Assembly (NCBI GenBank): GCA_900109895.1 | Contig: FOBR01000021.1 | Span: forward strand, 1-64,000 | DNA from: a bacterium A37T11 | Lineage (GTDB): Bacteria > Bacteroidota > Bacteroidia > Sphingobacteriales > Sphingobacteriaceae | Direction of reading: 5' to 3' | Length of the DNA: 64,000 nt | Shown: positions 6,163 to 26,576 of the stretch, in pieces | How positions within the stretch are numbered: position 1 is the stretch's first letter | How the letters are laid out: every line of letters begins with the position of its first letter | Position numbers and translations under genes: made by a program | Notes under the pieces: generated by a model | The model's database searches: none | What the model saw: the letters and a program-made list of their open reading frames with translations, nothing else | What the model was told of the DNA's origin: nothing

Positions 6163-6310
6163 AAGCGGCACAAACCTCGTAAAGTCAGTTATATAAAGAT
6201 GATGGTCATCGATGATTTGAAAGCAGAAACAGTAGACAGCTATGTGAAGGAGCATTTTACATCCGATTTCACTGTGGATTCAGACGACTCCACATCCTAC
6301 AGAAAAATGG
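6163..6310 (+). pseudogene. IS1595/ISXO2-like transposase fragment
   Basis: About 50 codons in one open frame read GKRHKPRKVSYIKMMVIDDL followed by KAETVDSYVKEHFTSDFTVDSDDSTSY. This matches the central DDE part of ISXO2-like transposases (IS1595 family), where 'DlkaeTi' and 'sDdstsY' are landmarks. No N-terminus, no remaining catalytic part and no inverted repeats are visible. The frame then runs into the opposite-strand IS3 relic, so this is a remnant only. Confidence 0.55.
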
Positions 6311-6900
6311 CAGAAAGTATAGCCGCACTCGGCAAGGTGTATTGGCTGCCTTGGTCAGTATTAACGATATCCGGCGCACCGCACAGCTCGAAGGCCTCCC
6401 GGATCACCCGGGTGCACCAAGTCGCATCCATCGTGTTGGATATGCTCCAGTGCACGATATAGCGGCTGTGGACGGCAATGACGGCCATCATGTACATGAA
6501 CCCCTTCTTCATCGGGATGTAGGTGATCGTTTCCCAAACTTGGTTGTTCCGGTTTATCGCCATGTCCTTGAGCAGGTACGGGTATTTGCGGTGGCCCTTG
6601 TCCGGTATGCTCAACCTTTTGATCGGATATATCGCCATAAGCCGAATTAGGCGGCGTATACGCTTCACGTTGACCACATCCCCTCCGTCATGCACAGGTA
6701 GGCACACATGGACACGACGCCCAAGTGGCTCAAGGAAGAAACGGTCAATCGTTCCCATCAATTCCAGGTTCAGGGCACTTTACCCTTGGGAAACGTAATA
6801 GAACCCCGAACGGTGGATGCCCAAAAGCGAGCATTGTTCCCTAATACACACTGGGGTTTCCTTTTCCACCATCATACGCCTGTCCAAAACGCTGAAGCTC
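6310..6900 (-). pseudogene. IS3-family transposase (OrfB) remnant
   Basis: The minus strand reads VCIREQCSLLGIHRSGFYY, a stop (TAA), then SALNLELMGTIDRFF, RRLIRLMAIYPI, HRKYPYLLKDMAINRNNQVW and NTDQGSQYT, the order of the IS3/IS2 OrfB HTH_21 plus rve integrase core. It is dead three ways. A nonsense codon sits in the linker. The first catalytic Asp, usual in 'viD.ySRy', is Ala (AVIAVHSRYI). Everything after DQGSQYT, including the catalytic Glu, is missing. The 5' side joins the 3' end of the RHS gene at ~6899, so an insertion here probably removed that gene's toxin tail. Confidence 0.75.
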
Positions 6901-10300: not shown

Positions 10301-11492
10301 TATTTGCACACGCACCAGTTCCGGTATACGCGTCATTGGCATATAATTGATGTTGGTCTGCGGATAGTACCTGCAGATAGGTATCCGTAACGCCAGAGCC
10401 ACAGTTGTCGACTGTTATTTCCATCGGAACGGTCAGGGTAAATTTGTAGAATGCTTCATTTCCTGATTTTGTATCCACCCTGCTTTTACTGAACAAACTG
10501 GTATTTTGAGTATGGCTATAGGTGAAATTTGCCGATTTGCTTCCTATGTTTACGGGATTGGATAAAGATGAACCCACCAATTGTTCTTTTCCTGTCACGT
10601 TAAGCACATATTTAGCATCACTGTATTGCTCCATGCTGAATTTTGAAAAGACGTAATAGGTACCGGGAGGCAGTTCGTAATTGATTTTTTGGGTAGAAAG
10701 GTTTTTATTTTGAATAGATACTTCCGCGATTGTATCCATCGACGCAGAAAGGATGTGCAGGTATAAGGTCTGCATCGATTCGATCCTTGCCGATCCGGTA
10801 TTGTCCAGGCTAATATCCATCGGTTTGGTAATCGTAAATTGGTGCACCAGGTCACGCCTATCACTTTCAGCGTCTAACTCAGAACCATTTTTGAAATCAC
10901 ATTTATAATATTTTAAATCATCAATATTTATTGTATGAGAGGTATTGAATCCAGCACTGAATGTACCCAGTATCGCCGGATAGAAAAAGTCTTCCCCCGT
11001 TCTCCTGGCTACACCTTCTACGTTGGTCTGCATTGAACCGATATCGCTCGGACTTCCCTCATAAGTCAAAGCTTCGGTAACGATATAATAGGTTCCCGGT
11101 TGCAGGGAATAAATAAACGTTTGATAACTCGAATTATAAGGTTCACCGTAAGCTATCTCCTGACCGGTTGCATCGAGTATATATATCCGCGTTCCATTGG
11201 AAAATGAGCTCCCATAGTCGTTGATCTTGAGTTGCATCGACTTGCCCGTGATGGTTAGTTTATAAAATACATCGCGGGCTGGAGGTTCGGTATAATATCC
11301 ATCTGTATAAGGATCATAGAACCGGTGAGTATAATCATCTGTATAGGCACTTGTATTTTTCGTGTCCGAGTAGGTAAAGAAGTCTGAATGAACACCCATG
11401 TCGATAGCGGTCGTCATTCTTGGACGGTACGTCTGGGCAAACAAGCCAGGAGTGCATACACTCAGCAGCAGGATATATAGGTATGTTCTCAT
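7326..11492 (-). CDS. Secreted PPC-repeat/DUF6443/RHS protein (C-terminus lost)
   Basis: 1388 residues with a signal peptide (MRTYLYILLLSVCTPGLFAQ). Residues ~25-560 hold about four PPC-type beta domains, each with a 'NPMDITV..CGS.VTDTYL' strand and an 'LPAGTYYVVSEG' ending. Next comes a DUF6443-like region (QYFDSFGNPSVNVQLDFSP, RPYSQTVYDDSPLDLVVEQYGPG), then YD/RHS repeats (YDDLGRLQTLAKN, YDPLSRLTAS, YTYNKNGSMIKDLNKGI). The protein stops at ALKRVL, where the hyperconserved core should begin; that piece is at 6899-7300 out of frame. The start overlaps the stop of the upstream 1038-aa gene by 4 bp (ATGA), so translation is coupled. Probable delivery shell of a polymorphic toxin, now without its payload. 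Confidence 0.85.
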   Translation of the reverse strand: MRTYLYILLLSVCTPGLFAQTYRPRMTTAIDMGVHSDFFTYSDTKNTSAYTDDYTHRFYDPYTDGYYTEPPARDVFYKLTITGKSMQLKINDYGSSFSNGTRIYILDATGQEIAYGEPYNSSYQTFIYSLQPGTYYIVTEALTYEGSPSDIGSMQTNVEGVARRTGEDFFYPAILGTFSAGFNTSHTINIDDLKYYKCDFKNGSELDAESDRRDLVHQFTITKPMDISLDNTGSARIESMQTLYLHILSASMDTIAEVSIQNKNLSTQKINYELPPGTYYVFSKFSMEQYSDAKYVLNVTGKEQLVGSSLSNPVNIGSKSANFTYSHTQNTSLFSKSRVDTKSGNEAFYKFTLTVPMEITVDNCGSGVTDTYLQVLSADQHQLYANDAYTGTGACANTQNAYLKVPALLPGTYYIVSDGEQNGNITTTLKGTTIGPVGDKLSTAIDAGTHEVGFIFTDTKNTASAFTNQFTGKSTNDVFYKFKLTNPMDITVSHCGSAVTDTYMSLLNESGTMIYSNDNYSGEGKCSNTGNALIKVTQLPAGTYYVVSEGNTQNGSITTSIEARSAFGNINTSRGQPHIISVTPTVETDKLENLTADKMQRNIQYFDSFGNPSVNVQLDFSPLGGDLVTLQENDGFSRKSNSWLPVAINTSGGLYPAPQLIKTKAKATTLYGSDQRPYSQTVYDDSPLDLVVEQYGPGNDWYTNSRSVKTDRMANFGSSGVLACAQYVLNGTSAVPTFKKNGFYADYELYVTRTTDEDNNISYEFKDKAGRMVLSRKISGSVPYDTYYIYDNYGNLSFVLPPLAADALTATNTTWKESTAAVENYAYIYHYDTYNRCIWKKLPGCEAVYYVYDKADRLIYTQDGEQRAKTTPEWTFTIPDAFGRTALTGKCTNNLAYQANPLANVLVKASYAGGTNAMKGYTVSGVTLAGPQLLTVNYYDGYTFVNTNGIAGDAEVDIVLHAYEDAYVAATASITLQNGFHVPVGSNFRAVITGASAGDTSGTNFGIPSQNVKGLLTGTLTAQLNANGTIGSTYLYSVLYYDNRGRLIQTNSNNHLPGGTEKEYTAYNFAGQPVKRKHVHAATGRNTQTEVVTYTYDQTGRSLKTTHQLTDGTTVKPQVTLAANSYDDLGRLQTLAKNSQAKLTTNYAYNIRSWTKSITAPLFNEILYYNESYGGSAKRYNGNISAISWKHTDESFTRGYAFTYDPLSRLTASAYLQDATVNDHYKTSYTYDKQGNMLTQQRYGLINTTTYGLMDNLTMTHSGNQLTKAEDAAGSAGFKNYSNVATEYTYNKNGSMIKDLNKGISLTEYNSLDLPRQLDIKSPGAEARKEYTYSADGRKLKVVQRWNPNYSTTPVMGSAINAGSLTMTRTTDYAGNIIYEDGALKRVL

Positions 11493-14400
11493 TTTCCCAA
11501 TTGGTATATATATTTCTGAAGCATTGCTTTCCGGATGTCTGATGGGGATTTTACATCCAGAAAATAGCTGTCTGTAAGCCTGCCGTAACGATCATAATCA
11601 AACTTGGTTGTCAAGTTGTTCGGATCAGTCATGGAAACTACACCCTGTAAGGGCTTGTATTCGAATTTGGTGATCCGGGCATTGGGAAGTTCTGTGCGCA
11701 GCTGCTCTATCCTGGACCATAAGGCAACAGGGGGCTCGGCATAGGCCGCCCAACCTTCAAAAACATTTGTACCATTATATACCTGCTGAATGGTAGCGTT
11801 TTCGATTTTAGCCACAGGGAACTGCGCCTGATACCCCCAGATGAAACTGATTGGAATGCCATCTTTTCCCATGATCTCTGTCGCATTGCCATAGGAATCG
11901 TACGCATTATATTTTACTTCATCCCTGAAAATAGATGTCTGATCGGTTCTGGACTGTACCTTTTCGGCAAGAGAACTATTAGCTTTAAATAAAATCCGGC
12001 TTTCTTTCCAGCTGTTGTTTTCCATATGCTTATAACGTGATAAAATAGCCGGATAACCCAACAGATAGTCCATACTATCAAGGATGACCGTGTGATCGCT
12101 GTTGGTCGTTTGGATCTGTCGGGGTTTCAGTGACGACCCAGGATTTGTCATATCAAACTGATAGTTATAAGTTTTTTGAGTAGTGACCACATCTTCCCTG
12201 CCATCCACAGCGTAATAAGTACTTTCAGTTTCTTTATCCAGCGCCCTGTACATTTCAGTATCCAGGTAATAAGTGGTTTGCACCTCTCCAGAATTTTCAG
12301 GGAACAAATAGTTTCCGGTTAAAAAGACATCATTGACTGTTAAACCTTCGGTATTTCCTGTAATGAGCCTATGTGGCACATCCACGGCAATGTTGGTTCC
12401 CCAGACCCGTACTGTTTTATAGGTGTAGTCAGTACGGGAAGCCAGCTTATTGTTTCGGAAGCGGTCTGTACGAATGAGAGCTCCATATAACTGATTAGTA
12501 AATGCGTAATGTTTTACATAGTCATCATTTGGTCTATGGGGATGGTCAGGTAATACCCGGGCAATTTGCTGGAGGACAGTTTCCGGCTGCTCCCTCAAAA
12601 ATGTCTGGATAGAACCGGCAGGATCTGCATCATCCCAATGCAGTATATCTTCAAAATTATGCGTTTTTACATTATAACAGTAATTTGATTTCATGGTGAT
12701 ATTATCGGTTGAATTGGTGATTTCCTCGGTCACCATATTGTACATCACAGCACTGCCTCCATTAAAGCTGATATCAGACTCGGGCATGGAACCGTATGTA
12801 AGTATATGACTAACTGTATTATTATCATCATCATAATGTGTTACCGATGAAACATAATCCCGGATGGTGACAATGTGATTAATAGCCCCTCCGCCCCATA
12901 CGGGTACAAAATTTGCCACCTCTGGGCGGGTCAAACCATAGGTATAGTTTTTATAGAACCCTTTTCTGGTTTGGGGATCCAGCGTTTCTATACGCTTTAC
13001 CCGCAGGCCGCCGACAGGATATAGATAGTCCTTGTCATGCGACCTGCTATTATCCCGGAAAGCAGCGAAATTTCCTTCATAAGCAAACGTAGTGGTGATG
13101 CCTTGCGGGTCAGTCACTTTAGTCAGTACTCCAGATTTGGTCCATTCATGGTCCGGCTCGCGGTATGCGCCAGCAAAATTTAATATAAGGGCTTTACTAA
13201 TCCCGCCATTGACATCTGGAAGAATTATACCTTTCTTAAAACTGGGTACGGTTGATCCGCTCTGACTTATACTACCATTACAGAATCCCCAGTGATCTAC
13301 CGCTACGGTATATATGGAAGGAACATTCCACGGATTGTTATAATTAAAGGAATACTTTTTGGGCTCCACCCCTGGAGCCGATATAACGACAGAATCCAAT
13401 TTGGTCAATGCTGTGTTTGAATTATAAGGTGTGATATAAAACTTGATACTTCTTACAACAATTCCGGTTTGATCCTTCACTTCAATGTCATCGAGTACAT
13501 CGCTGTTATTGGGAACAATACCTACGGATTTGTAGCTTACATACATTTTATTTCCCAGGAAATTGACTTCATGCAGGCGTGTTACCGTCATGTTATCGGG
13601 GATATATCTGTTTATTGTTGGGTAATTTACCCCGGCCTGTGTTGCTGAAATGGGCGTTAATTGTGCGTCTGGAGTTCCATTAGTCATTCCAGAAGGATAG
13701 TTTATAGAATAGTGTACATTTTGATTGTTGGTCTGTACCGTAAATGTATTTTTAATGGTATTTCCATTTTTAGAATAATTGACGACAACTTTATTATCAA
13801 GGTTATAATAATGGCCTTGAGAAAATACATTGGCGATCTTTGTGTATGAAAAATTAATCAATGCATTATTTGGATTATTTGGTGACCAGATCGATTTACA
13901 CATCCAGCGCATGACGTTGTTCTCTACGATCTCCTGTTCCCCATCGAACAAATATTTCATACCCCGGGTATCCGTAATACTTATTCCGCTCGCATTATGG
14001 TATTCCACTTTATCATTGTTCCGGGGTATGGATAAAAAATTAATGCCGTCTATAAAATAGCCGCTACCACCTCCATTTGGTAGTTTGTAGCTGAACTTAT
14101 CCGGCTGGGTATCCCGTTCATTGTCTACCAGTTCGTTGTAATATTTAATTTTAGCGGCTTCTCCAGCGGTAGCCGGATTATAACCGCTGGCCGGGTTATT
14201 AAGCCATCCGTAGGGATATTCATCGTCGGCCAAACCACATACCTGCCTGCTAACAGATGGTTCCAAGTTCAATGTCCATCCGGTACCTGCAGGCGTACTC
14301 GCCTCTTTGGGTTTCAAACCTGAGGCATGATAGGACAGGTTCACCGGTATGGAAACTTCTCCGGCCACAATCTCGTATAAAGGTATTGTAATGCTTGGAA

Positions 14401-14605
14401 CGCCGGTAGAATGATCTACCGGATACGACTGGTATTTTTCCATAGCTGCCGCCGTAGGAGAAATTGGGACGACACGAGGTACATCCAGCGAAATACTCGT
14501 TTGGGCATGACTTTTCATGATGGATGCCATAAACAGTATATTGCTGCTTATTAATAAAGCCGCCAGAAAAACATAATTTTTTATCATTTGGTTTTTTATG
14601 AACAC
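11489..14605 (-). CDS. Secreted RHS companion protein
   Basis: 1038 residues with a signal peptide; the better start may be Met7 (MIKNYVFLAALLISSNILFM). The mature N-terminus reads VPISPTAAAMEKYQSYPVDH then STGVPSITIPLYEI and VNLSYHASGLKPKEASTPAG, the SpvB/TcdB-like opening that Bacteroidota proteins upstream of RHS genes share. YD-like repeats appear toward the C-terminus (YNAYDSYGNATEIMGKDGIP, TTKFDYDRYGRL). Such proteins are thought to build part of the shell around the RHS toxin. It is the second gene of the operon, 4-bp overlap with the next, ~176 bp after the tail-fibre-like gene. Uninterrupted. Confidence 0.8.
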   Translation of the reverse strand: MFIKNQMIKNYVFLAALLISSNILFMASIMKSHAQTSISLDVPRVVPISPTAAAMEKYQSYPVDHSTGVPSITIPLYEIVAGEVSIPVNLSYHASGLKPKEASTPAGTGWTLNLEPSVSRQVCGLADDEYPYGWLNNPASGYNPATAGEAAKIKYYNELVDNERDTQPDKFSYKLPNGGGSGYFIDGINFLSIPRNNDKVEYHNASGISITDTRGMKYLFDGEQEIVENNVMRWMCKSIWSPNNPNNALINFSYTKIANVFSQGHYYNLDNKVVVNYSKNGNTIKNTFTVQTNNQNVHYSINYPSGMTNGTPDAQLTPISATQAGVNYPTINRYIPDNMTVTRLHEVNFLGNKMYVSYKSVGIVPNNSDVLDDIEVKDQTGIVVRSIKFYITPYNSNTALTKLDSVVISAPGVEPKKYSFNYNNPWNVPSIYTVAVDHWGFCNGSISQSGSTVPSFKKGIILPDVNGGISKALILNFAGAYREPDHEWTKSGVLTKVTDPQGITTTFAYEGNFAAFRDNSRSHDKDYLYPVGGLRVKRIETLDPQTRKGFYKNYTYGLTRPEVANFVPVWGGGAINHIVTIRDYVSSVTHYDDDNNTVSHILTYGSMPESDISFNGGSAVMYNMVTEEITNSTDNITMKSNYCYNVKTHNFEDILHWDDADPAGSIQTFLREQPETVLQQIARVLPDHPHRPNDDYVKHYAFTNQLYGALIRTDRFRNNKLASRTDYTYKTVRVWGTNIAVDVPHRLITGNTEGLTVNDVFLTGNYLFPENSGEVQTTYYLDTEMYRALDKETESTYYAVDGREDVVTTQKTYNYQFDMTNPGSSLKPRQIQTTNSDHTVILDSMDYLLGYPAILSRYKHMENNSWKESRILFKANSSLAEKVQSRTDQTSIFRDEVKYNAYDSYGNATEIMGKDGIPISFIWGYQAQFPVAKIENATIQQVYNGTNVFEGWAAYAEPPVALWSRIEQLRTELPNARITKFEYKPLQGVVSMTDPNNLTTKFDYDRYGRLTDSYFLDVKSPSDIRKAMLQKYIYQLGK

Positions 14606-15858: not shown

Positions 15859-15928
15859 CTGTCTGTTTTTCAAATTCACCACGGAAAACAGCCTGTTCAC
15901 CACGAAAAAATGCCTGTTGGCATAAATA
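15859..15928. repeat. Dispersed repeat R1, copy 3
   Basis: Same 5' flank as upstream of the pilin-like gene, with both tandem ~21-bp units, ending in GCCTGTTGGCATAAATAT; the GGTTATTTATAG tail is lost. Confidence 0.7.
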
Positions 15929-15947
15929 TCCCGTCAACAACCCCTCA

Positions 15948-16441
15948 AAAAACCCATTTGGGTTTTTCCCGGACCCATATCGGTTTACGTGGAATGGGAA
16001 AGGGAACGCGGCATACCCCTATAAAATCCCCGTAAACTAGTCTGGGTTGATGGTTCACCCAGACCGGTGCACACAGCTCTCTGCTGGTCCAGCGGTAAAC
16101 ACTAATGGGTTCACCGTGACACGGTATGGGTACGCGGCTTATTTAAATGAGTTTACCGTGTACCCATATCGTTGTTATATTATACCGAAACGGGTTCCCT
16201 TCGTACTTATATGAGTGTGCGGTGAACCCATATGGGTTCGCGGTAAACTGGTATCGGTATGCCTCGAACCGATAACCTTTTGCATACAACCGAAAAGGGT
16301 ATACGGTATACCCACACGAATATACCGCATACCCAAACAAAACAGCGGCGGCCCGGTTATGGGTCGCCGCTATTGGGTGTAGGTTTGCTGTAAAACCATT
16401 CCGGTTTAACGTGTAGGCATATGGGTATGATGAATACCCAT
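15948..16441. repeat. Palindrome-rich stretch
   Basis: About 500 bp with no convincing gene but many short perfect inverted repeats sharing the words ACCC/GGGT, GTATAC and CGGTAAAC. Seen directly: AAAAACCC-4-GGGTTTTT (15948-15967), GTCTGGGT-9-ACCCAGAC (16040-16064), ACCGTGACACGGT (16113-16125), GAACCCATATGGGTTC (16224-16239), GGGTATACGGTATACCC (16297-16313), a ~10-bp GC-rich stem at 16344-16371 and ATGGGTAT-5-ATACCCAT (16421-16441). The first could act as a bidirectional terminator. The rest look like a field of operators or hairpins of unknown use. Confidence 0.6.
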
Positions 16442-16447
16442 ACCGGT

Positions 16448-16942
16448 TTAGGGCCAAAATCGCTTTCGGAGTAACCAAGCCAAGGAAGCCACGAGTATCA
16501 CCGACAGACCTACGATCCACCAGGACCAGCCCGTACTGACAGCGACCGACCGATTGGTTGCTTCGCTTCGTTTGTCAATATGGCTGCTATCAGTCAACGC
16601 GATAGACACCTTGGAAACCAGCCGGCTGCCGGAAAACTGCAACGAATCTTCCTGCATGGCTTTTTGGCGATACACGACTACCTGGCTGGCCTTACCAATA
16701 AAGCCCGAGTCCGGATGGTAACGAAATGCCCCCACCGGGGAGAGGACCAAAGCCTCCTGCAGGTCGTAATTCCGGTGCAGCCACATTTCCTTCAGCGTGT
16801 CCAACTGCGTTAAGTCCACTTTTCTTTGAACGGAACTATGCATTTCGCTTTGTTGGGAAGCATCGCTTTTCAACTGGCGTTTGGTACTGCAAGAAATGCT
16901 CCATAGCACGACTGTAATGAGCATGACACTTAAGCGTTTCAT
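16448..16942 (-). CDS. Lipoprotein with C-terminal transmembrane helix
   Basis: I chose the ATG at 16942 because it gives a clean lipoprotein signal (MKRLSVMLITVVLWSISC, lipobox SISC); a longer frame starts at 16975 but would overlap the FN3 gene. The mature protein of ~147 residues is polar (KRQLKSDASQQSEMHSSVQRKVD) and ends with a single hydrophobic helix (WWIVGLSVILVASLAWLL) and a basic tail. A lipid anchor plus a C-terminal helix would span the periplasm between two membranes. No family recognised. It is the last gene of the CHAP operon and lies 14 bp after the FN3 gene. Confidence 0.65.
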   Translation of the reverse strand: MKRLSVMLITVVLWSISCSTKRQLKSDASQQSEMHSSVQRKVDLTQLDTLKEMWLHRNYDLQEALVLSPVGAFRYHPDSGFIGKASQVVVYRQKAMQEDSLQFSGSRLVSKVSIALTDSSHIDKRSEATNRSVAVSTGWSWWIVGLSVILVASLAWLLRKRFWP

Positions 16943-16955
16943 ATCAACTGCATCC

Positions 16956-17597
16956 TTAAGCATCCACCTGGGCAATCAGGGAAGAAACAGGGCTCCAGCC
17001 ACTAATGCCACGCTTGTTACGCGCACGTACCCGGAAATAGTACCGTACACCGTCTTGCACCGGTGAATAGAAGTTGCCGCGTGAGTTTGAGTTGCTGCCC
17101 GCAGACTTCCATATCAACTGGTTCTGCTCATCGTTTTCCCAGGCAATCTGCATCTCGTAGTCGTAAGCCTCCCTCACGGCCGGAAACTCCAGCAGGATTT
17201 CGGCTGGCCTCGATGAAAGACGCAGACGACTCCATGCCGGAGCCGATGGGCTGCCCAGGCTCTTCGGGTCTGCGACGGGAAGGAAACCAGAACTTAACTG
17301 TACGGAGCTCACATCCGTAAAGTTATTGATGTAACTGCTCACCCTGCGCATCATAATGATGAGTACTTCGCGGGCCTCATCCTTTTCTTTCTTTTGCTGC
17401 GCGCTGGCATTCCGGTTGGCGGTGATGCCCTGCTTGGCGATATAGTCAAGTGCCGCTGCTTCATAATCAGCAAACGGAGGGTTCAGGTTCGGAAAATTGG
17501 TATTCGTGCGCAGTGCATCCGCAGAGCGTGTGGCTAAAGAAGCGAGGTCAGCGTCGCTTAAATACTTGTAATTACTGATTAATTTGGGAGTTCTCAT
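16956..17597 (-). CDS. Fibronectin type III domain protein
   Basis: 213 residues without signal peptide. Residues ~1-110 are helical (DADLASLATRSADALRTN, AQQKKEKDEAREVLIIMMRR). Residues ~115-212 look like one fibronectin type III domain (SPSAPAWSRLRLS, YDYEMQIAWEN, GVRYYFRVRARNKRGISGWS). Proteins with this layout are frequent in Bacteroidota, often near phage-like or cell-wall genes, with no assigned function. Third gene of the minus-strand operon after the 4-TM protein and the CHAP hydrolase. Confidence 0.75.
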   Translation of the reverse strand: MRTPKLISNYKYLSDADLASLATRSADALRTNTNFPNLNPPFADYEAAALDYIAKQGITANRNASAQQKKEKDEAREVLIIMMRRVSSYINNFTDVSSVQLSSGFLPVADPKSLGSPSAPAWSRLRLSSRPAEILLEFPAVREAYDYEMQIAWENDEQNQLIWKSAGSNSNSRGNFYSPVQDGVRYYFRVRARNKRGISGWSPVSSLIAQVDA

Positions 17598-17656
17598 TGT
17601 TTTTGTTTTTGTTTTTAATTTTTATGTATTCAATTATTTAATAGAATTTCTTAGAA

Positions 17657-17696
17657 CGTCATCCGGAGCGAACGAAGTGAGTCGAAGGATCTCTGC
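17657..17696. repeat. REP-like intergenic repeat
   Basis: CGTCATCCGGAGCGAACGAA followed by GTGAGTCGAAGGATCTCTGC. This 'GTCAT.C.GAGCGAA...CGA(A)GGATCT' text is a dispersed intergenic repeat familiar from many genomes. It sits in the gap between the FN3 and CHAP genes. Confidence 0.5.
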
Positions 17697-17727
17697 TATT
17701 TCCGTTGTACTTCGTTCAACATGCCGA

Positions 17728-18408
17728 TTATTTTGAGATCCAATCAGCGACTTTGTAAATCGTTTTGATCAGTCTCTTTTTTCGGTATACGCCTTCTCCA
17801 GGGCCTGCACGGATAGGGTGGGAGGGATCGTCTGCGGGTGCAATGGCACCGGTATTGTTGGTATTGGCTTCGACTGTGATGCACCAAATTCCATCCCAAC
17901 TGTCTACAAATCCGCAATGGCCAATGCGTTTTAGTTCGGAGAAGTATAAGCCGAATACGTCGCCGGCTAAGGGAGTTGTACGTTGTAAGTTATACGTTGT
18001 AAGTCCCTGCATGGCGCCAATTGGCTTCTGTTGCTTCTTTTCCCAAACAACACGTTTCGCCGGAAACAATGCCGGTGCCCAGCCGTTCTTTGGATTGCCA
18101 ATACCGGCTTCGTGTAAACACCAGCACACGTAGGCAGCACAATAAGAATAGCCTTTTGTAAGACCAATGTACTTTAAGTATTTCTCAACCTCCGGCCCGT
18201 CGTTCTTAACAGTTGCCTCCCGAACCCCAATTTCGGCGGTGTAAATGTGGCGGAGGGTTTGGCGTTGTGATGAGGTCTGTAGCGATCCAGAACCCATCGG
18301 CGTCGCTACATCCTTATTTGGTTTGTTTACAACAAAACCAAAAATACCGCACAGCACAACAAAACCAATCCGGAAAAAATACCTGTCAAAATCTTTGCTT
18401 CTAAACAT
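17728..18408 (-). CDS. CHAP-domain peptidoglycan hydrolase (NlpC/P60-like)
   Basis: 226 residues. Residues ~10-28 (YFFRIGFVVLCGIFGFVV) form a signal anchor. The domain at ~55-215 has the CHAP landmarks: Cys in YSYCAAYVCW, His in IGHCGFVDSW and Asn in VEANTNN, the expected Cys-His-Asn order. Such enzymes cut peptide cross-links or act as amidases on peptidoglycan. A Shine-Dalgarno-like AAAGGAAT lies 4-5 bp before the ATG, supporting this start even though it overlaps the 4-TM gene by 82 bp. The codons for the short TTYNLQRTT stretch hold a 12-bp tandem duplication. The context suggests a cell-wall-acting unit controlled by the upstream RteC/LytTR genes. Confidence 0.8.
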   Translation of the reverse strand: MFRSKDFDRYFFRIGFVVLCGIFGFVVNKPNKDVATPMGSGSLQTSSQRQTLRHIYTAEIGVREATVKNDGPEVEKYLKYIGLTKGYSYCAAYVCWCLHEAGIGNPKNGWAPALFPAKRVVWEKKQQKPIGAMQGLTTYNLQRTTPLAGDVFGLYFSELKRIGHCGFVDSWDGIWCITVEANTNNTGAIAPADDPSHPIRAGPGEGVYRKKRLIKTIYKVADWISK

Positions 18409-18791
18409 GACGTGATTCCTTTCTTTAAATAATCGTGTTCATCATCCCATTCATAAAATTCCGTGAGGGTAGGGCGTACCATTCGCAGCAGAAGCCAGGC
18501 TGATACCACAAAAGCATCGACCATAAGGATAGCGAGAAGAACCGCGCTCAGCACCCCAATATCCAGAGCTGCTGCACTGGGGTCTATCAGTCTCAGTAAA
18601 GGCCCGCTGTATACAAACAACCCTAGTAAAATAAGTACCTGCCCCACTGCAATCAAAGCCTTCCAACCCAGCCAATGCCAGAAATTGAATCCATTCAGTT
18701 CCCGTTCCCAGGCCATTTCCTCCGCTAAGTCGGCTTCACTAAGCGGGTAACCATTTATCCCGATTACCGGGATCTCTTTTTGTTTTTGCAT
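18327..18791 (-). CDS. Four-TM membrane protein
   Basis: 154 residues with about four hydrophobic helices (WLGWKALIAVGQVLILLGLFVY; DIGVLSAVLLAILMVDAFVVSAW; ... GIFSGLVLLCCAVFLVLL). The N-terminal 35 residues are cytoplasmic-like and polar. A strong ribosome binding site (AAAGGAGT) precedes the ATG. Its last 27 codons overlap the start of the CHAP gene in another frame. First gene after the twin palindromes, so probably the direct target of their regulator. Size and position are holin-like, but I cannot assign a family. Confidence 0.7.
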   Translation of the reverse strand: MQKQKEIPVIGINGYPLSEADLAEEMAWERELNGFNFWHWLGWKALIAVGQVLILLGLFVYSGPLLRLIDPSAAALDIGVLSAVLLAILMVDAFVVSAWLLLRMVRPTLTEFYEWDDEHDYLKKGITSCLEAKILTGIFSGLVLLCCAVFLVLL

Positions 18792-18846
18792 TTTTTACTC
18801 CTTTCTTTTTAATAATAAGGCAAAGGTGTCAAGGTTCAGAAACTGT

Positions 18847-18984
18847 TTATCACAAGTTGAACCGTATACGGTGTTTTTTTTAAAAAGAAATAGATAGGGG
18901 ATTTAATGAGGTTTCATCGGTTGTTTTTTGGGTATCACAATAGGTTTAGGAGGTTATCACAAGTTGAACCGTATACGGTGTTTT
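18847..18984. promoter_or_regulatory. Two direct repeats with ACCGTATACGGT palindrome (candidate RteC operators)
   Basis: An exact 31-bp direct repeat occurs at 18847-18877 and 18954-18984, 107 bp apart. Each copy contains the perfect palindrome ACCGTATACGGT (18861-18872, 18968-18979). The upstream copy ends in the stop codon of the RteC-like gene; the other lies 56 bp before the ATG of the 4-TM gene. The position between a regulator and the next operon, and the ~10-turn spacing, suggest cooperative binding. That RteC binds here is inference. Confidence 0.55.
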
Positions 18985-19831
18985 ATTCATCGGCATCATC
19001 CATGCGATTATTCAGGGCGTCAAGAAGTTCATCCAAAAAAACGGTGCGACCCTTTTTCCGGATGCGCAGTTCCTGAAACACGCGGTAAATATTGCCCAGG
19101 TCAATGAAAAATACACATTCAAAGTAGTCGCTGATCTGTTTGAGATCAGCCTGCCCATTGTTGAATACATGCCGGGATTCCAACGCATAGATCAATTCGG
19201 TTAACGCAGCCTTGGGAGCTGTCCAACGCATCGGAGACAACTGACCGGGCAATTGCAGGCTAAAGTCCATCTTTCCGGGTTTACTCAACGCTTCCAGCGC
19301 ATCGGTGAGATAGAGGCGCAACAGCTCATTAGCCATCATCTCAGCCACACGGTAGTCGTGGCTGCTGCTGAAGCGGTGGTCTGAGTCGGCATAATGGTTG
19401 TCAAGCCCCAGTCGGAAATCGTACTGGCCCCGCCTGAAAAATTTTTCATCCAAGTAAGTCATTCCCGAGCGGTAATATCGGTAGAATTCCAGATTTTGTT
19501 TATAATACTGGTTAATATGGTCCTGTGCTTTCTGCAAATACCGGCGCATGGCCTTGTCATTTCCACCGGGTTTATTGACCTCCAGGCTGTAAAGCGCCTG
19601 ATGGTAGATCAGCTTGCTGTAAATAGTCGGTTTGATCTCTTTAAAAAACAAGATCTCTTCGGCAGGATCGATAAAATGATACTCAACAATAAATTGTTTT
19701 AGCGACTGTAAACCAACATCCAGTACGTGGAGTGATAGCTCTGATCGTTTGATGGGATGGTCGACTTCCAAGGCAATATTACCCAGGTCCTCCTGTATCC
19801 GGGCTTCGAGTTGTTTGCAAAATGTTTTCAT
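18983..19831 (-). CDS. rteC: RteC-family regulator
   Basis: 282 residues, the usual length of RteC. Landmarks are FIVEYHFIDPAEEILFFKEI, YRYYRSGMTYLDEKFFRRGQ, SSSHDYRVAEMMANELLRLYL and a C-terminal helical part with a winged-helix-like stretch (LTELIYALESRHVFNNGQADLKQISDYFECVF, then FQELRIRKKGRTVFLDELLDALNNRM). In CTnDOT, RteC is the DNA-binding protein that activates excision genes; here no integrase or excision gene is visible. It lies 20 bp after the LytTR gene and upstream of the twin palindromes. A role as activator of the CHAP operon is inferred. Confidence 0.85.
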   Translation of the reverse strand: MKTFCKQLEARIQEDLGNIALEVDHPIKRSELSLHVLDVGLQSLKQFIVEYHFIDPAEEILFFKEIKPTIYSKLIYHQALYSLEVNKPGGNDKAMRRYLQKAQDHINQYYKQNLEFYRYYRSGMTYLDEKFFRRGQYDFRLGLDNHYADSDHRFSSSHDYRVAEMMANELLRLYLTDALEALSKPGKMDFSLQLPGQLSPMRWTAPKAALTELIYALESRHVFNNGQADLKQISDYFECVFFIDLGNIYRVFQELRIRKKGRTVFLDELLDALNNRMDDADE

Positions 19832-19851
19832 AGGTCATGCAGATTGGTTGA

Positions 19852-20727
19852 TTAAACTATACGTGGTGTGGCCCAGGCTATGACCGCTGCCGCATTTTCA
19901 CGTCCTACATGGATTGTCAGGTTTAATTTATCCAGAAGCTTTAGTTCCAATGATCGGTTGGGTTTATTGGACCAGCTGGCGATGCTGGAGATACATACAA
20001 TATACTGCCGTGATACCTTATGAAACCAATCCGGATTCATGTATTTGGATAATTCCTCCACCGGGTATGGGTTTAAATAACTACGTCCATCACGCATGAC
20101 GACCGTGTGTCCTTCATCCTTGAAACTAAAATAAGCAATATCACAGACCCAAATAGTCATCTCCTTATAACCGTTGCGCATGCGCAATTGGTGAGGACGT
20201 TCCGTCGAGCGCTTAAATTTCGTAGCCCATTCAGCCAATTTATGGATCACCTTCAGATAAGTAAAAGCCTGTGATAGAGAATAGATGAGAATATATAGCA
20301 CATTTAGCGAAAAAAGAAATAGGGCTCCTATTTTAAATTCGTTGCTTAGATAGGCCAGTATACGTTCAGATACTCCCAGTACGGAATAAATAAACCAAAA
20401 GACTATCGAGGGAAGTAACAGTGGAAGAAAGTAACAAAAGATCAGCTGTTTTTTGAGTCGTTCCCGAAGATCAGTGACCCACGGCCACTTCCTGTCAAGC
20501 CTTCTGGTCATCCAGTGGTTAAATTCTAATACGATGAAAGTAACAAGGCAGCTTAGAACGAGCGCCAACCAATAGGATGGACTGCGGAAATGAGTGATCA
20601 GATCATCCGCTTCTTTAATAACCATCACCTGATGGCCGATAAAAATACTCAGCAGGAGCCGGAGCCATAGTGGCAAATACCTTAATTGGCTAGGGGGAAG
20701 GGTCCCCTGACGTAAAATTGTTTCCAT
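19852..20727 (-). CDS. Membrane-bound LytTR-domain regulator
   Basis: 291 residues. Four hydrophobic helices in the first ~160 residues (LWLRLLLSIFIGHQVMVI; WLALVLSCLVTFIVLEF; IFCYFLPLLLPSIVFWFIYS; ALFLFSLNVLYILIYSLS). The C-terminal ~100 residues are a LytTR DNA-binding domain (VCDIAYFSFKDEGHTVVMRD, then DWFHKVSRQYIVCISSI). There is no receiver domain, so it would be a membrane one-component regulator. It starts the minus-strand unit with the RteC gene. A promoter-like TTG-N19-TATTTTTG is found 43 bp upstream. Confidence 0.85.
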   Translation of the reverse strand: METILRQGTLPPSQLRYLPLWLRLLLSIFIGHQVMVIKEADDLITHFRSPSYWLALVLSCLVTFIVLEFNHWMTRRLDRKWPWVTDLRERLKKQLIFCYFLPLLLPSIVFWFIYSVLGVSERILAYLSNEFKIGALFLFSLNVLYILIYSLSQAFTYLKVIHKLAEWATKFKRSTERPHQLRMRNGYKEMTIWVCDIAYFSFKDEGHTVVMRDGRSYLNPYPVEELSKYMNPDWFHKVSRQYIVCISSIASWSNKPNRSLELKLLDKLNLTIHVGRENAAAVIAWATPRIV

Positions 20728-20948: not shown

Positions 20949-23900
20949 TCACTTAAAACTTGGATTTACGTACACTTCGCCCAATAATTGATTTTTATCT
21001 GCCCCCATCGAAGCAATACCCGCTCTTGAATCTCTGATTTCACTACGTGCGTTAGCTATGTTATTTCTTTTTTCAGCGAGATCAGCCACCTTGTCGATTT
21101 TGCCTTTATTTAATGCCTTTCCTATCTTGTTATTTAGTCTTTGTTCTTGCTTTCTTAATTGATTTTCTCTATTTTTTAATTGAGCATCAATTCGGTCCGC
21201 CTTCTTTTTGTCTTTTGGGTCTTCCCATTCCTTCCCGTTTTGGTCTATCAAACGAACCGGATTATTTGCAACATAAACGTAAGACGACATTGAATAATAC
21301 TTCTCCGCCAACGGATCCACCGCATTCCACCTCCCTATCACCGGATCATATGACCGCGCGCCATAGTCATAAAGATTACTGCCATCCTGCAGTTCTTTAC
21401 CGTTGTAAAAGTAGCGGTTCTTGGGCGTAGTTATAACACCCTGGCCGTAACTTAACCCAAATGGATAATAATTACTCACAAACTTGGCCGTAGTTTGGCT
21501 GTTAGCAGCAAAACCAGACCGGGTATTGCCTAGGTGATCCTTTAGGAAGTACTCATAGGCATAGCCATTACTGGTGGTATTGACCGCCCTGCCTTCCTCT
21601 GTCTGGATAAAGTTCAGTTTGGTGTCTTCCCATTCAATGCCGTCAATGTAATCGGTAGCAGTCGTACCAAACACCGTTCTTAGCTTCCTACCCGAGGCAT
21701 CATAGGTATAGGTCAGTTGCCCGGCAGGGGTTTTAACAATCCGTGGCAGGTTGATGGAATTGTAGGTAATTGTATCCAGGTTATTGGCCGTATTACTGGC
21801 CAGCGTATTCTTCCGCTTGATTAGGTTACCATTGCCGTCATAAGTGTAGTTCACCGTACCGGGGGAGTGGTATCCCACCGTGGCATCCGTACTCAGATCG
21901 GTCACCGCTGTCAGTTTGTTATAGCTGTACGTATAATTCAGCGAATCGGTATGTACGGTACTGCTGACCGCCCTGCGTAGCGTCTCAATATTACCCATGG
22001 TGGTGTAGCTTATCGTCTCGCGGTAAGCACCCGTGCTCAACGCACCCCGTGTGAGCCGGTTAATAGCGTCATACTGGTAGCCATAGGTCTGGATACCAGC
22101 GGTAGGTCCTTGGCGGTACTGCTGATAGACAATGTTTCCATTATACTGCTTGCTGGTACCTTCGGTATAGAGCAGCCGCTGGTAAAACAAACTGCTGGAA
22201 TCTGAGCTGAGCCAACCCCGGGGGTTGTACTTATACGCCACTGTCTGCTGGTAGTTGATGCTGTCGGTACTATGCACCCGCTTTTGGTAGAGCTGGCCTA
22301 TTTCGTTGTAGACATTATGGGCCATTAGCGTGCGGGTTGGAGCAGGAGTGGCCGAAGCCGGTGTCACCGTCTTCCAGGTATCCAGCAGCCTTTCCTGGTG
22401 GTCGTAGTCATATTCCGTGGCTACCGTAGCCTGCAGCACCGTTGCCGTACCAGCTGTATTGGCCGTATAATGTTTTCTAGTGCTCTTTTTAGGTTTCCCG
22501 GTAAAGGTATAACTGGTGGAGACATCATCGTAGTTCAGCGGGCTGACCACCCCACCTTTATAGTGCTGGCTGAACTGGCGGGTCACCTGACCCTTGTTAT
22601 CGTAGTAAAAGACCGTTATCAACCGATTGGTGGTACCCGTCGTGCCATCCATCACCTTGGTCACCGTCACTGTCGGCAAGCTCTGCGTCATGGAGCTGTA
22701 GCCAGTTGGGCGGTAATTAACCGGCAATGCCAGCAAAGTAGCCACATTGTAGTCATCATAATAGTTTACCAGCAGATTGGTTACCACGTTAGTTGTAGGC
22801 CAGCTGCGATTACTCCAGGTCGTACTGGCACGTTCTTCCCACAGCACAGCCGTTTGGTTGGAGACCAGCGCCTGCAGATCCGTCCAGGAGATTGCCACCC
22901 CGCCATTATTCCAGACTCCGGTGAGCACCACCCGCCCCAGACCATCATACTTGGTAATCATCCATTCCTTCCGGGCCCGTTGCAGCAAATCCTGGGTAGC
23001 CACCACCTGGTCCAGCTTATTATACACCATGTATTCCACCCCCTTACCAGGCAGCTGTTTGCGGATCATGCGGTTGCGCTCGTCATATTGGTACTGGTAG
23101 CCATATCCCGCTATTTCATTGGCCGAAGGCAGCGTACTCCCCCGGTCGGGATTAATACCCGGGGGCAAGACATAGGTCAGGTTGCCAAAGTCATCATACA
23201 CATAATAGGTGCTCAGGATCTCCTGGGTAGACCCTTTCAGGTTAAACGTCCGTTTTAACACCACCTTTCCTTCCTTGTCTTTGTACTCCTCCGTAGTATG
23301 CAGCCTAAGGTTAAACCCGGTGGCCGTACTGTCCCAGTTCTCATCCTTGCTGATGGTAACATAGAGTTCATTATTGGCATAGCTGATACCACTGCCAATG
23401 CTCAACGTGGGCACCCCAGTTGAAGAAAGACTCACTTGGTAGAGGATTACTTTTCTGGTCGTGGCCACTGTGGCAAATAAGTCGTTGTTATTAGTGGCGT
23501 ATTCTGTGCGGGCTGTATGACCACTACCTGAAATAGCTGTGTTCTTAGGCTGCCAGGCAGCCCCGGGAAACCCCTGCTGCTCCACGCGGTTCAAGGGTGA
23601 AGGCTCATAGACCGTCTGAGAATAAGGGTAAGCATTCTTAGCCTGTCCTGCTGGAGGGATGTTGTTGTAATAATAAGCCTGGGAGGTCAGCCCAGTGGTT
23701 TTATAGGCTCCGCCCACCAAAGAGGTGGAGGCATAAGGCAGGTATTGTTTATCCTCTCGGCCATAGGCATCATACGTAATGGGGATGACAATGTCTTTTG
23801 TAGCAGCTGGGGTAGCTTTCACCTGTACCGTCTGCATGGGCCTGCCTAACCCGTCGAAGTACTGCACCTGTTGCATAGCATCGGTCACAGCCGGGTTGGT

Positions 23901-24459
23901 AGGGGCTGAGCTAAAAGGCTTCAGGTAAGTGGTGGTATGGATGCAGTTATGATCGGAGCTTAAAGTACTACCGCCAACCGAAAAACTCACGGTAGTGGTA
24001 CCTGTACCACCAGCATTATATGCCTTTATGGTATAGGTCGTCAGTGGGGTGCCTGTAGTTGGGGTTCCCGTAATAGCCCCAGTGGTTTTGTTGAAACTCA
24101 TCCCTGCCGGCAATGCAGGGCTAATGCTATACCCCTGCCCCGTGCCCATTTTCCTTACCTTGTTGTTATAGCAATCAGCAATATAGATCGTGCCATCTGC
24201 CCCCACATGAATACCTGTTATAAAATTGAAGCTGGCCGAAAGCGGGGAGCCATTGTCCGCACCGGTGGCCCCGCTGCCAGCAACGGTGGTAACCACCCCC
24301 GATGGGGTCATTTTGCGGATCCGGTTGCTCATTTCGGCAATGTAGATATTGCCGGCGGCATCCTTGCCCATGGCCAGCGGACGGTAAAAACTGGCGCCGG
24401 TGCCTGTGCCGTCGGTGGTGGCTGTGCTTCCGGAACCGGCAAAGGTAGTCACCACGCCC
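20949..24459 (-). pseudogene. 5'-truncated NHL-repeat/DUF6443/RHS protein
   Basis: About 1170 codons stay open, but the 5' end is cut at the edge of the 1.28-kb duplicated block, leaving only a TTG start and no signal peptide. Residues ~1-110 carry NHL-type repeats ([36 protein letters not shown]), then an Ig-like/putative cadherin-like stretch. Next is DUF6443-like ([40 protein letters not shown]), YD repeats and the core ([43 protein letters not shown]). The tail (~75 residues after [13 protein letters not shown]) is a lysine-rich coiled coil that ends quickly, so the toxin is probably missing. No immunity gene lies downstream. Confidence 0.75.
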
Positions 24460-24552
24460 AAATTTTAAATGGTGAAATGATTACAAATTATATTCCGGCA
24501 AAATACTGATATTTATGTGTGGTTTTAATTTTTTCTTGTTGATTTTAAATTT

Positions 24553-24560
24553 TAACTTTG
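24553..24560 (+). promoter_or_regulatory. Possible -7 box TAACTTTG directly before an ATG
   Basis: TAACTTTG fits TAnnTTTG and ends 5 bp before the ATG at 24566, which would put the transcription start at or next to the start codon (leaderless message). The same box precedes copy 2 at 46795-46802. No good -33 box is seen. Confidence 0.35.
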
Positions 24561-24565
24561 CAATG

Positions 24566-25252
24566 ATGGAATACGAAGTACTGGACTGGCCGGTGGCCAG
24601 GGACTTAGTTGAAAAAAACGATGCCCATTGCATTGAATTAATTGACTACAATCAGGGTCAAGTTTATCAGTTAAAAGATTCTTCATATGTGGTCATGCCC
24701 GTTATGCCCTTTGCGAAATGCCTGCGGGTGTATCATCGGCAGCTTTTGGACGAATGGATAAGAAACTCTTTTTTTCCAACAGGCGAGCATTTCAGCGATT
24801 TTTATTATAAGCATAAAGCAATCATGGACAATTTTCCGCAATATACAGACAAGTTGCGGGAGGAATTGATCACCTATATTCAGAAAAAGCCGGGGAATAC
24901 AGGCCATGTGCCTGATTCAGACGATATAGACCTGATTTATAAAACGCTGCGTAAGAGAAAGAAATTCAGTACTTACCGGCTTCATTTTTATGCGCTCCTG
25001 GGTAGCTATATTATAAAAATATGTCCGGAAGAACATTTCAAGTGGGGATTATTGCAGAATAAGCAAATGCTGGATCCGCCGGTGAGCCTGGTTCTCCTAA
25101 AAAAACAGGATAACGCATGGCGGTATTTTGATTTAGAAGATTGTGTTGAAGGAAAATTTGGTTATCTAAGTGTTCAGTATGTTTTAAGTTCACCCACAAG
25201 ATTCAATAGAAGATTTAATGAAATAGAATCATTGCTGAGGGTAATGGATTAA
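24566..25252 (+). CDS. Immunity candidate for the PD-(D/E)xK toxin, copy 1
   Basis: 229 residues from the ATG at 24566 (MEYEVLDWPVARDLVEKND); an alternative ATG lies 3 bp upstream. The longer frame from 24515 has a hydrophobic lead that also encodes the toxin's flank, so I do not use it. The protein is cytoplasmic and acidic-aromatic, with no family I recognise. It has the size and place of an immunity gene: 54 bp after the end of the toxin frame in copy 2. In copy 1 only the last codons of that toxin remain, so this copy is an orphan immunity gene that could still protect. Confidence 0.6.
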   Translation: MEYEVLDWPVARDLVEKNDAHCIELIDYNQGQVYQLKDSSYVVMPVMPFAKCLRVYHRQLLDEWIRNSFFPTGEHFSDFYYKHKAIMDNFPQYTDKLREELITYIQKKPGNTGHVPDSDDIDLIYKTLRKRKKFSTYRLHFYALLGSYIIKICPEEHFKWGLLQNKQMLDPPVSLVLLKKQDNAWRYFDLEDCVEGKFGYLSVQYVLSSPTRFNRRFNEIESLLRVMD

Positions 25253-25308
25253 TTTAATAAGATAAATGACATTACTGGCATAGTAGGTAGAGAAATAACA
25301 TTACTAAT

Positions 25309-26576
25309 TCTATAAGTTCGACGGCAACGGAAACCTGAAGAGCCGGCTGAACACAGTAAATGACGCGGCCCATAACAAGAACAACCTGACGGCGGTCACC
25401 TATAATTACCTGAATCTGCCTCAAAGTATCACCGCCCCGGGCGGTAATGTAAGCTATGTCTACGATGCCAGCGGCCGTAAGCTGCGCAGCACGAACGGTA
25501 TTATGGGGCAGACCCGCGACTACGTGGACGGCATTGAGTATGCAGGCGGGACGATGGAGCTGATCACGACGGAAGAGGGCCGGATACTGCGAAGCGGCAG
25601 CACGTATACCTATGAATACTACCTGCGGGACCATCTGGGTAATAATAGGGTGGGTTTCAGCCAGGGCACGAACGTCACTACGCCCAACTTCACGGCAGAC
25701 TTTTATCCCTTTGGTTTGCAATACCAGCAGTATATACGTACAGGTAATCCAAAAAATAATTACCTTTATGGCGGTAAAGAACTGCAGGATGGCCTGCAGC
25801 TTTACGACTACGGCGCGCGGCTGTATGACCCTGTGACAGGGAGATGGGGAGTGGTGGATCCGATGGCTGAAAAAAGCCGCAGGTGGTCTCCTTATACGTA
25901 TGGGCTGGATAATCCCATTCGGTTTATTGACCCGGATGGGATGGAGACAAGTGACCCGAATGCGATTGCGGGGCTATTGGCCTGGGCCCGGATGGATGCT
26001 TCGATGAAGGAAGCGGATGAGCGGATGGATCGATTATTTGATGAGAATAAGAAGCTTATCAATAGAAATGAAAATGGAAGTATTGATGAACAGTTAACGT
26101 CAAACATATATGATCCAGGCAAATGGGACTTATTAAGTGAAAAATCATTTAATTTTTCCAAAGTGACAGGAAGTTATTGGGGAGCGAGAACAAAAGGTTT
26201 TGTTTTAATTATAGAGGATTTAGAAGGAGATGTTCTATACAAAAATAAGTTTACGATAGAAGTCGGGGTTCCTATAAAAGGAAATGATGGAAAAAAGTAT
26301 TCCAAAAATGATGCAATTCATTATACAACTCTAGTAGCTAACTCAGTGGCAACTCAAATAACAGCCGTTTCCTTTTTTATTGGCCCAGGAGGAAGAAGAA
26401 TGGCTTTAAACAATTCCACTTTGCCTTATTACTTTGCAGGTGAGATGGAGAGAAAATTAAATAATTACATCCCCGGCTCAAAAGTTACTGCAAATACATA
26501 TGGTTATAAAAAAGTTAAGGAGAGAGAGGCTGAGTATACTAATTTTTTTAAAGGTTTATTAGAAAGGCTATTTTGA
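25309..26576 (+). CDS. RHS core end plus unclassified toxin tail
   Basis: The frame opens after a TAA near 25306, without an ATG; the first usable starts are inside the core (25503 is ATG). It reads [83 protein letters not shown] and NPIRFIDPDGMET. The ~215-residue tail (KEADERMDRLFDENKKLINR, GKWDLLSEKSFNFSKVTGSY, then FFIGPGGRRMALNN) matches no toxin family I know. An N-terminally anchored protein follows 11 bp later, the probable immunity partner. The 5' ~425 bp belong to the duplicated block. Confidence 0.75.

Follow-up and report, generated by a model that had tools for sequence, protein, structure and literature searches.

Introduction

The type 10 secretion system (T10SS) YenLC of Yersinia entomophaga lyses specialised cells, releasing a toxin complex (PMC10847048), and T10SS secretion of a non-lytic kind has also been reported (PMC13284979). 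In a survey of unimolecular spanins (u-spanins), all 58 proteins were reported to contain no cysteine other than that of the lipobox (PMC6139136). Here, we describe a six-gene locus at positions 16448–20727 of a 64,000-nucleotide (nt) stretch of contig FOBR01000021.1 (hereafter the window), which derives from the Sphingobacteriaceae bacterium A37T11. The locus combines three envelope genes resembling such a lysis cassette with an FN3 protein, a row of phased palindromes, and the regulator RteC. With a probability of about one half, we read it as one copy of a multicopy chromosomal locus type of Bacteroidia in which the FN3 protein and the palindromic operator row are joined to a phage-type, T10SS-like lysis module, with RteC as the switch of this copy.

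A multicopy locus type in Bacteroidia

All six reading frames of the locus are intact and lie on the minus strand. In the direction of transcription, the order is a LytTR protein with four transmembrane (TM) segments, RteC, twin 34-nt palindromic repeats, a small TM protein, a CHAP protein, an FN3 protein, and a lipoprotein with a C-terminal helix (Table 1). An array with a 21-nt period downstream of these genes and a frame overlap between the membrane-protein and CHAP genes are features beyond those in the preliminary description of this DNA.

Table 1. Features of the locus and its flanking array, in window coordinates
Feature	Positions	Strand	Remarks
Membrane LytTR regulator	19852–20727	-	291 residues; four TM segments, C-terminal LytTR domain; PF04397, E 4e-10
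RteC regulator	18983–19831	-	282 residues; PF09357, E 7e-77
Distal palindromic repeat	18954–18987	.	overlaps the rteC stop codon
Proximal palindromic repeat	18847–18880	.	AACCGTATACGGTG; just upstream of the putative cassette promoter
Possible -7 box, Bacteroidota type	18821–18828	-	CACCTTTG; one mismatch to TAnnTTTG
Small membrane protein	18327–18791	-	three TM segments by hydropathy; holin-like position; conserved GPLLRLIDPTA-type motif
Membrane-protein/CHAP frame overlap	18327–18408	-	82 nt
CHAP peptidoglycan hydrolase (predicted)	17728–18408	-	N-terminal membrane anchor; PF05257, E 1.4e-7
FN3 protein	16956–17597	-	213 residues, no signal or TM segment; three-helix bundle and FN3 domain
Lipoprotein with C-terminal TM segment and basic end	16448–16942	-	u-spanin-like topology; lipobox SISC
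21-nt-period array	15868–16434	.	~27 degenerate units; palindromic GGGT...CCG...ACCC-type motif; directly downstream of the lipoprotein gene

Similarity searches of the A37T11 genome found the membrane protein at 12 places and the FN3 protein at 10 or more, many of them co-located in pairs, and a profile search found at least 20 FN3 loci. Among 21 FN3 loci of this genome that were mapped, ten hold the membrane protein, CHAP, FN3, and lipoprotein genes side by side, and others have incomplete sets. Conservation of the gene order, which the preliminary description had proposed as a check, thus holds for the four-gene unit. It does not extend to the six-gene order with RteC, which is found only at the window locus. 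In the surroundings of 29 RteC loci from other genomes, no convincing cassette genes were seen.

Members of the FN3 family occur in 48 of the 149 genomes examined from the class and in roughly one third of its sampled genera. The window member gives a weak Pfam FN3 match (0.015), and its FN3 domain is clear in an AlphaFold model with a predicted local distance difference test score (pLDDT) of 90.6. Comparison of this model with the PDB and BFVD matched FN3 domains only.

Relatives of the locus vary in composition. In Sphingobacterium-type relatives (comparison loci L125, L127, and L130), the FN3 gene stands first in the order. At two loci where the CHAP trio is missing, a DUF5675-type protein, perhaps an alternative hydrolase, follows FN3 (L126:8374–8874 and L128:8368–8895). 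A sister class (L040–L057 and L238) carries DUF6266 (PF19781) in place of FN3, together with the same membrane-protein, CHAP, and lipoprotein genes. Period 22 is the best period at 6 of 29 DUF6266 loci, and at several loci the 22-nt arrays consist of 11-nt half units (TTCGGG / CCCGAA) whose orientation switches midway. In the literature that we searched, which left most subscription journals outside reach, we found no locus of this kind. It also yielded nothing on DUF6266, on RteC together with LytTR, on CHAP and 21-bp repeats, or on FN3 and palindromic tandem repeats in Bacteroidetes.

A helically phased palindromic array accompanies the FN3 gene

Repeat spacings in multiples of 21 prompted an autocorrelation test. 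The window array scores 0.52, compared to 0.29 ± 0.02 in 2000 dinucleotide shuffles (maximum 0.38). A period of 21 nt at about 16135–16383 is the sole strong periodicity in the window among periods of 15–30 nt, and weaker flanks reach 15868 and 16434. This signal recurs with the FN3 family: of the 20 periods compared, 21 scores best at 46 of 58 distinct FN3 loci and exceeds the threshold at 39, while control segments 4–6 kb away never do so (0/58). Twelve random 20-kb stretches of the A37T11 genome gave a single period-21 match (L249), a simple TTTACGA repeat. In a wider set from Bacteroidia, an array accompanies 43 of 64 FN3 loci, upstream of FN3 in 33 and downstream in 13, with a few loci having both. 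The usual position in most genomes is directly upstream of the FN3 gene; in the window, the array lies downstream of the operon. Arrays hold 10 to 33 sites, and periods of 20, 21, and 22 nt occur in other families of the class.

In most arrays, the units are palindromic beyond what column permutation yields. Within the units, the two arms show no covariation, z being near 0 for most arrays. In the majority of arrays, every one of the six frames is interrupted by stops; in some, a frame stays open. Because the arms are independent and stops fall in every frame, the arrays look like DNA operator arrays rather than RNA hairpins. We also rejected a CRISPR (clustered regularly interspaced short palindromic repeats) or structured-RNA repeat array, given the degenerate units of fixed period, the lack of arm covariation, and the absence of an Rfam match. 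Plasmid iterons were likewise set aside, as there is no Rep among the neighbours examined and the FN3 protein has no match among PLSDB plasmids.

The array motif varies between loci. The window array shares its motif with that of L094 (r 0.86, z 9), the closest comparison locus, and some other close pairs are alike. A tie between the array and RteC was discarded: no comparable 21- or 22-nt signal was seen at any of the 29 RteC-centred loci from other genomes, and L094 shares the motif without having RteC. We also set aside the twin palindrome as a form of the array motif, the likeness being weak, with two overlapping array matches at 2–3 mismatches.

Further array loci deserve mention. The array at L130:6315–7007 is nearly perfect over about 30 units (ACAAGTAATCACTTGTCGGTC), which suggests that arrays arise or renew by tandem duplication. 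A 21-nt array at L237:11914–12536 (the same as that at L100:415–1037) has no FN3 gene in view and adjoins a locus with extracytoplasmic function sigma factor, FecR, and SusCD genes and a sulfatase-like gene. Beside minimal FN3-array loci, we observed a family of small helix-rich proteins of about 66–92 residues (L118:9154–9354, L119:6985–7188, L121:8889–9089, L123:7094–7327, and L113:9619–9897). The two members tested have no Pfam match, and the family is possibly a candidate helix-turn-helix (HTH) protein that binds the array.

RteC as a probable local switch

The preliminary description placed a four-TM LytTR protein and an RteC homologue ahead of paired palindromes, and this arrangement is borne out. 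Hydropathy peaks of the LytTR protein fall at residues 19–37, 51–69, 95–113, and 133–151, and LytTR-like proteins likewise stand ahead of the cassette in L094, L104, and L109. The RteC match spans positions 2–219 of the 219-position PF09357 model, and this is the only RteC in the genome. Its predicted structure (pLDDT 75.5) gave no significant match in a comparison with the PDB. An RteC relative is encoded in five viral contigs; RteC-like genes may therefore be carried by other elements as well.

The twin repeats between rteC and the membrane-protein gene are 97% identical and lie 107 nt apart, and each holds a perfect ACCGTATACGGT palindrome. Their 26-nt core has no other occurrence in the 5.09 Mb genome at up to 3 mismatches; the twin palindromes are therefore not due to chance. 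Bacteroidota promoters have the -7 consensus TAnnTTTG, to which the possible box in Table 1 is compared.

The regulator ahead of the cassette differs from copy to copy: it may be HTH_17-related, a LytTR protein, a histidine kinase with a LytTR response regulator, or RteC. In L094, whose FN3 protein is 85% identical to that of the window, the order is LytTR, HTH_17, gap, membrane protein, CHAP, FN3, lipoprotein, and array, and window RteC thus occupies the place of HTH_17. As RteC genes of other genomes do not lie beside the cassette and HTH_17 is found at the same place in L094, RteC is a local replacement for a single regulator within a multicopy system. The gaps between regulator and membrane protein have no meaningful sequence similarity in the two loci, and each contains its own, differing inverted repeats. 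RteC probably acts via the twin palindromes, because the upstream palindromes change with the regulator between the window and L094 while the downstream array motif stays common. From their position and this exchange of regulator and operator, we predict that the twin palindromes are probably RteC sites and that this single RteC of the genome is the probable switch of the window copy. Control of the operon by RteC, as proposed in the preliminary description, is hence plausible for this copy, although the pairing of RteC with the cassette is not conserved.

That description also stated that no mobile-element gene is present. This is true of the six-gene stretch itself, but an integrase-core (rve) transposase fragment lies 10 kb away at 6297–6761. 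Among the genes examined around 6–29 kb, we found no RteA/RteB, excision, or transfer genes. RHS/DUF6443 proteins are encoded on both sides of the cassette (7326–14605 and 20949–26576), with more related genes at 43–58 kb.

Envelope proteins with the topology of a lysis cassette

The preliminary description suggested a wall-cutting, membrane-spanning device, and the predicted topologies of the three envelope proteins fit a wall-cutting device that spans the envelope. One correction is needed: for the small membrane protein, described there as a second four-TM protein, hydropathy indicates three TM segments. It belongs to no Pfam family. The overlap between its reading frame and that of CHAP is exactly 82 nt in 39 of 50 membrane-protein/CHAP pairs from A37T11 and other genomes, across the FN3 and DUF6266 classes, which points to an arrangement under selection.

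The CHAP protein is a predicted peptidoglycan hydrolase with conserved catalytic residues, as C90, H164, E180, and N182 are invariant in 28 of 28 proteins. A single N-terminal TM segment is present in the window protein and in nearly all relatives shown. Taken together, the intact frames, the invariant catalytic residues, and the fixed overlap argue for continuing selection on the module. In the CHAP linker (17974–18060), a short genomic repeat is read in frame, with AGTTGTACGTTGTA twice in tandem, and sister CHAP linkers have the same or other repeat-derived sequence (GLTTYNLQRTTPL, VETQDLASL); intergenic repeats thus seem to have been inserted in frame.

The lipoprotein has a topology matching that of a u-spanin. 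Its C-terminal TM segment stops six residues before the C-terminus, leaving the tail RKRFWP, and it contains no cysteine besides that of the lipobox. Within the family, the C-terminal TM segment is found in 20 of 23 members and the lipobox pattern in 15 of 23. Side by side, the three envelope genes would have the anatomy of a T10SS-type lysis cassette, consistent with a role in lysis or release.

Proposed mechanism and points against it

If the locus is indeed an RteC-switched lysis module joined to an FN3-array unit, the following course of events can be envisaged. The membrane LytTR regulator would sense an envelope signal. RteC, judging from the position of the twin palindromes and the exchange of regulator and operator in L094, would bind these sites just upstream of the operon promoter and activate it. 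In a subset of cells, the three envelope proteins may then cause opening or lysis, or they may build a passage, as their topology, the catalytic residues, and the T10SS precedent suggest, and the co-made cytosolic FN3 protein, perhaps with other cargo, would be released. The 21-nt array could serve as a cooperative binding platform with one dimeric site per two helical turns, giving all-or-none control. Its binder would be a factor common to sister copies, with LytTR, a protein encoded elsewhere, and the FN3 protein as candidates.

What binds the array is the weakest link of this proposal, and several observations weigh against the proposal. No single family of regulator genes turned up at all of the array loci, and 21 of 64 FN3 loci have no array above threshold, including the sister copy L093, whose FN3 protein is 88% identical. 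Coevolution of the array motif with FN3 was considered and rejected, as motif likeness and FN3 identity are uncorrelated across the whole set (Mantel rho 0.05, p 0.25). In family and similarity searches, the small membrane protein has no similarity to any known holin family. Finally, minimal FN3 loci in other genera have the array without any lysis-like genes. Lysis is therefore ruled out as the core role of the FN3-array unit, which serves a function separate from it.

We advance a broader version of this proposal tentatively, as somewhat less likely than not. FN3-array loci might constitute a categorically new, Bacteroidia-wide multicopy system in which each copy has its own fast-diverging, helically phased palindromic sites and an FN3 (or DUF6266) effector and can recruit a lysis or release module, giving a genome many separately addressed cell-opening switches.

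Alternative explanations

Instead of acting as a promoter device, the core could be a nucleoprotein scaffold, which is centromere-, iteron-, or anchoring-like, with a protein coating the phased sites and the membrane and wall proteins tethering or remodelling the envelope around them. The number of sites per array far exceeds ordinary promoter needs, the period is strictly two helical turns (20, 21, or 22 nt), and the array may sit downstream of its operon, as it does in the window. We nevertheless consider such a scaffold unlikely: twenty-odd copies per genome with differing motifs are unlike a segregation site, the copies examined have no neighbouring gene for Rep, Par, or an ATPase, and in most genomes the array is placed as a regulatory region of the FN3 gene would be.

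The envelope proteins might instead form a non-lytic device for local wall opening and for export or assembly of large surface proteins (RHS, SusC/D) encoded nearby. The RHS/DUF6443 proteins flanking the window copy, the SusC/SusD genes flanking many copies, and the reported non-lytic T10SS secretion noted above are in keeping with this idea. The SusC/SusD link was discounted as a weak association, since 7 of 12 stretches of 20 kb taken at random contain a SusC-like gene, and no fixed cargo gene accompanies the copies, which makes this explanation rather improbable.

A degenerate prophage, or a phage-derived lysis remnant repeated by chance, would account for the distant likeness of CHAP to phage endolysins and of the FN3 domain to phage tail FN3. 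Phage matches are limited to these two, and for the FN3 protein they cover the domain only. The FN3 family has no relative in 2.9 million viral contigs, and family searches of the nearest neighbours detected no phage gene. Together with the signs of continuing selection, these results make a remnant very improbable, and the CHAP gene, for which residence inside prophages had been raised in the preliminary description, is not prophage-borne. A comparison with the PADLOC models of anti-phage defence gave no match for any of the six proteins.

The least credible alternative is that the array encodes heptad repeats or is transcribed into a hairpin RNA, for which a period divisible by three and the frame left open in some arrays would speak, but which is contradicted by the periods of 20 or 22 at other loci of the class and by the stops and noncovarying arms already described.

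Implications

Should the proposed reading be correct, free-living Bacteroidota carry ten or more separately regulated chromosomal lysis or release cassettes. Release of the T10SS type would then reach well beyond the enterobacterial examples in the papers we found, and many "hypothetical" genes would be explained. Phased palindromic arrays tied to one protein family are a distinct and easily detected DNA feature, making the FN3 and DUF6266 families directly testable.

Comparison with known systems

In CTnDOT, where RteC takes part in controlling excision, inverted repeats lie beside the target of RteC, which is accompanied by the RteA/RteB pair. Window RteC belongs to the same Pfam family over its full length and also has inverted repeats beside its presumed target operon. 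In contrast to its CTnDOT counterpart, it has no RteA/RteB pair, excision, or transfer genes beside it, and the presumed target is a cell-envelope cassette. The DUF6266 loci are alike in having the same three envelope genes and, at several loci, a 22-nt array; they differ in that the array is present in a minority.

For the array, the nearest parallel is BldC and excisionase-like winged HTH proteins that multimerise on repeats (PMC5859096, PMC11963761). HTH_17 proteins, whose genes stand next to many of the copies, fall within the broad MerR/excisionase-like HTH group, and even spacing would suit cooperative binding. BldC sites, however, are direct repeats, whereas each 21-nt unit here is palindromic, and array loci exist in which no HTH_17 gene was detected.

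The window lipoprotein resembles u-spanins of the T1 gp11 type (PMC6139136) in its N-terminal lipobox, its C-terminal TM domain, the lack of any other periplasmic cysteine, and the position of its gene downstream of the hydrolase. We found no common sequence family; for gp11, a β-rich periplasmic domain is predicted.

As a whole, the locus resembles T10SS and phage lysis cassettes such as YenLC (PMC10847048), with adjacent genes for a small membrane protein, a peptidoglycan hydrolase, and a protein of spanin topology, a chromosomal location without a prophage, a dedicated regulator, and RHS-type proteins near the window copy. It differs in that no sequence similarity to known holins or spanins was found for the window genes, that about ten full copies are present per genome, and that an FN3 protein and a phased array belong to the unit.

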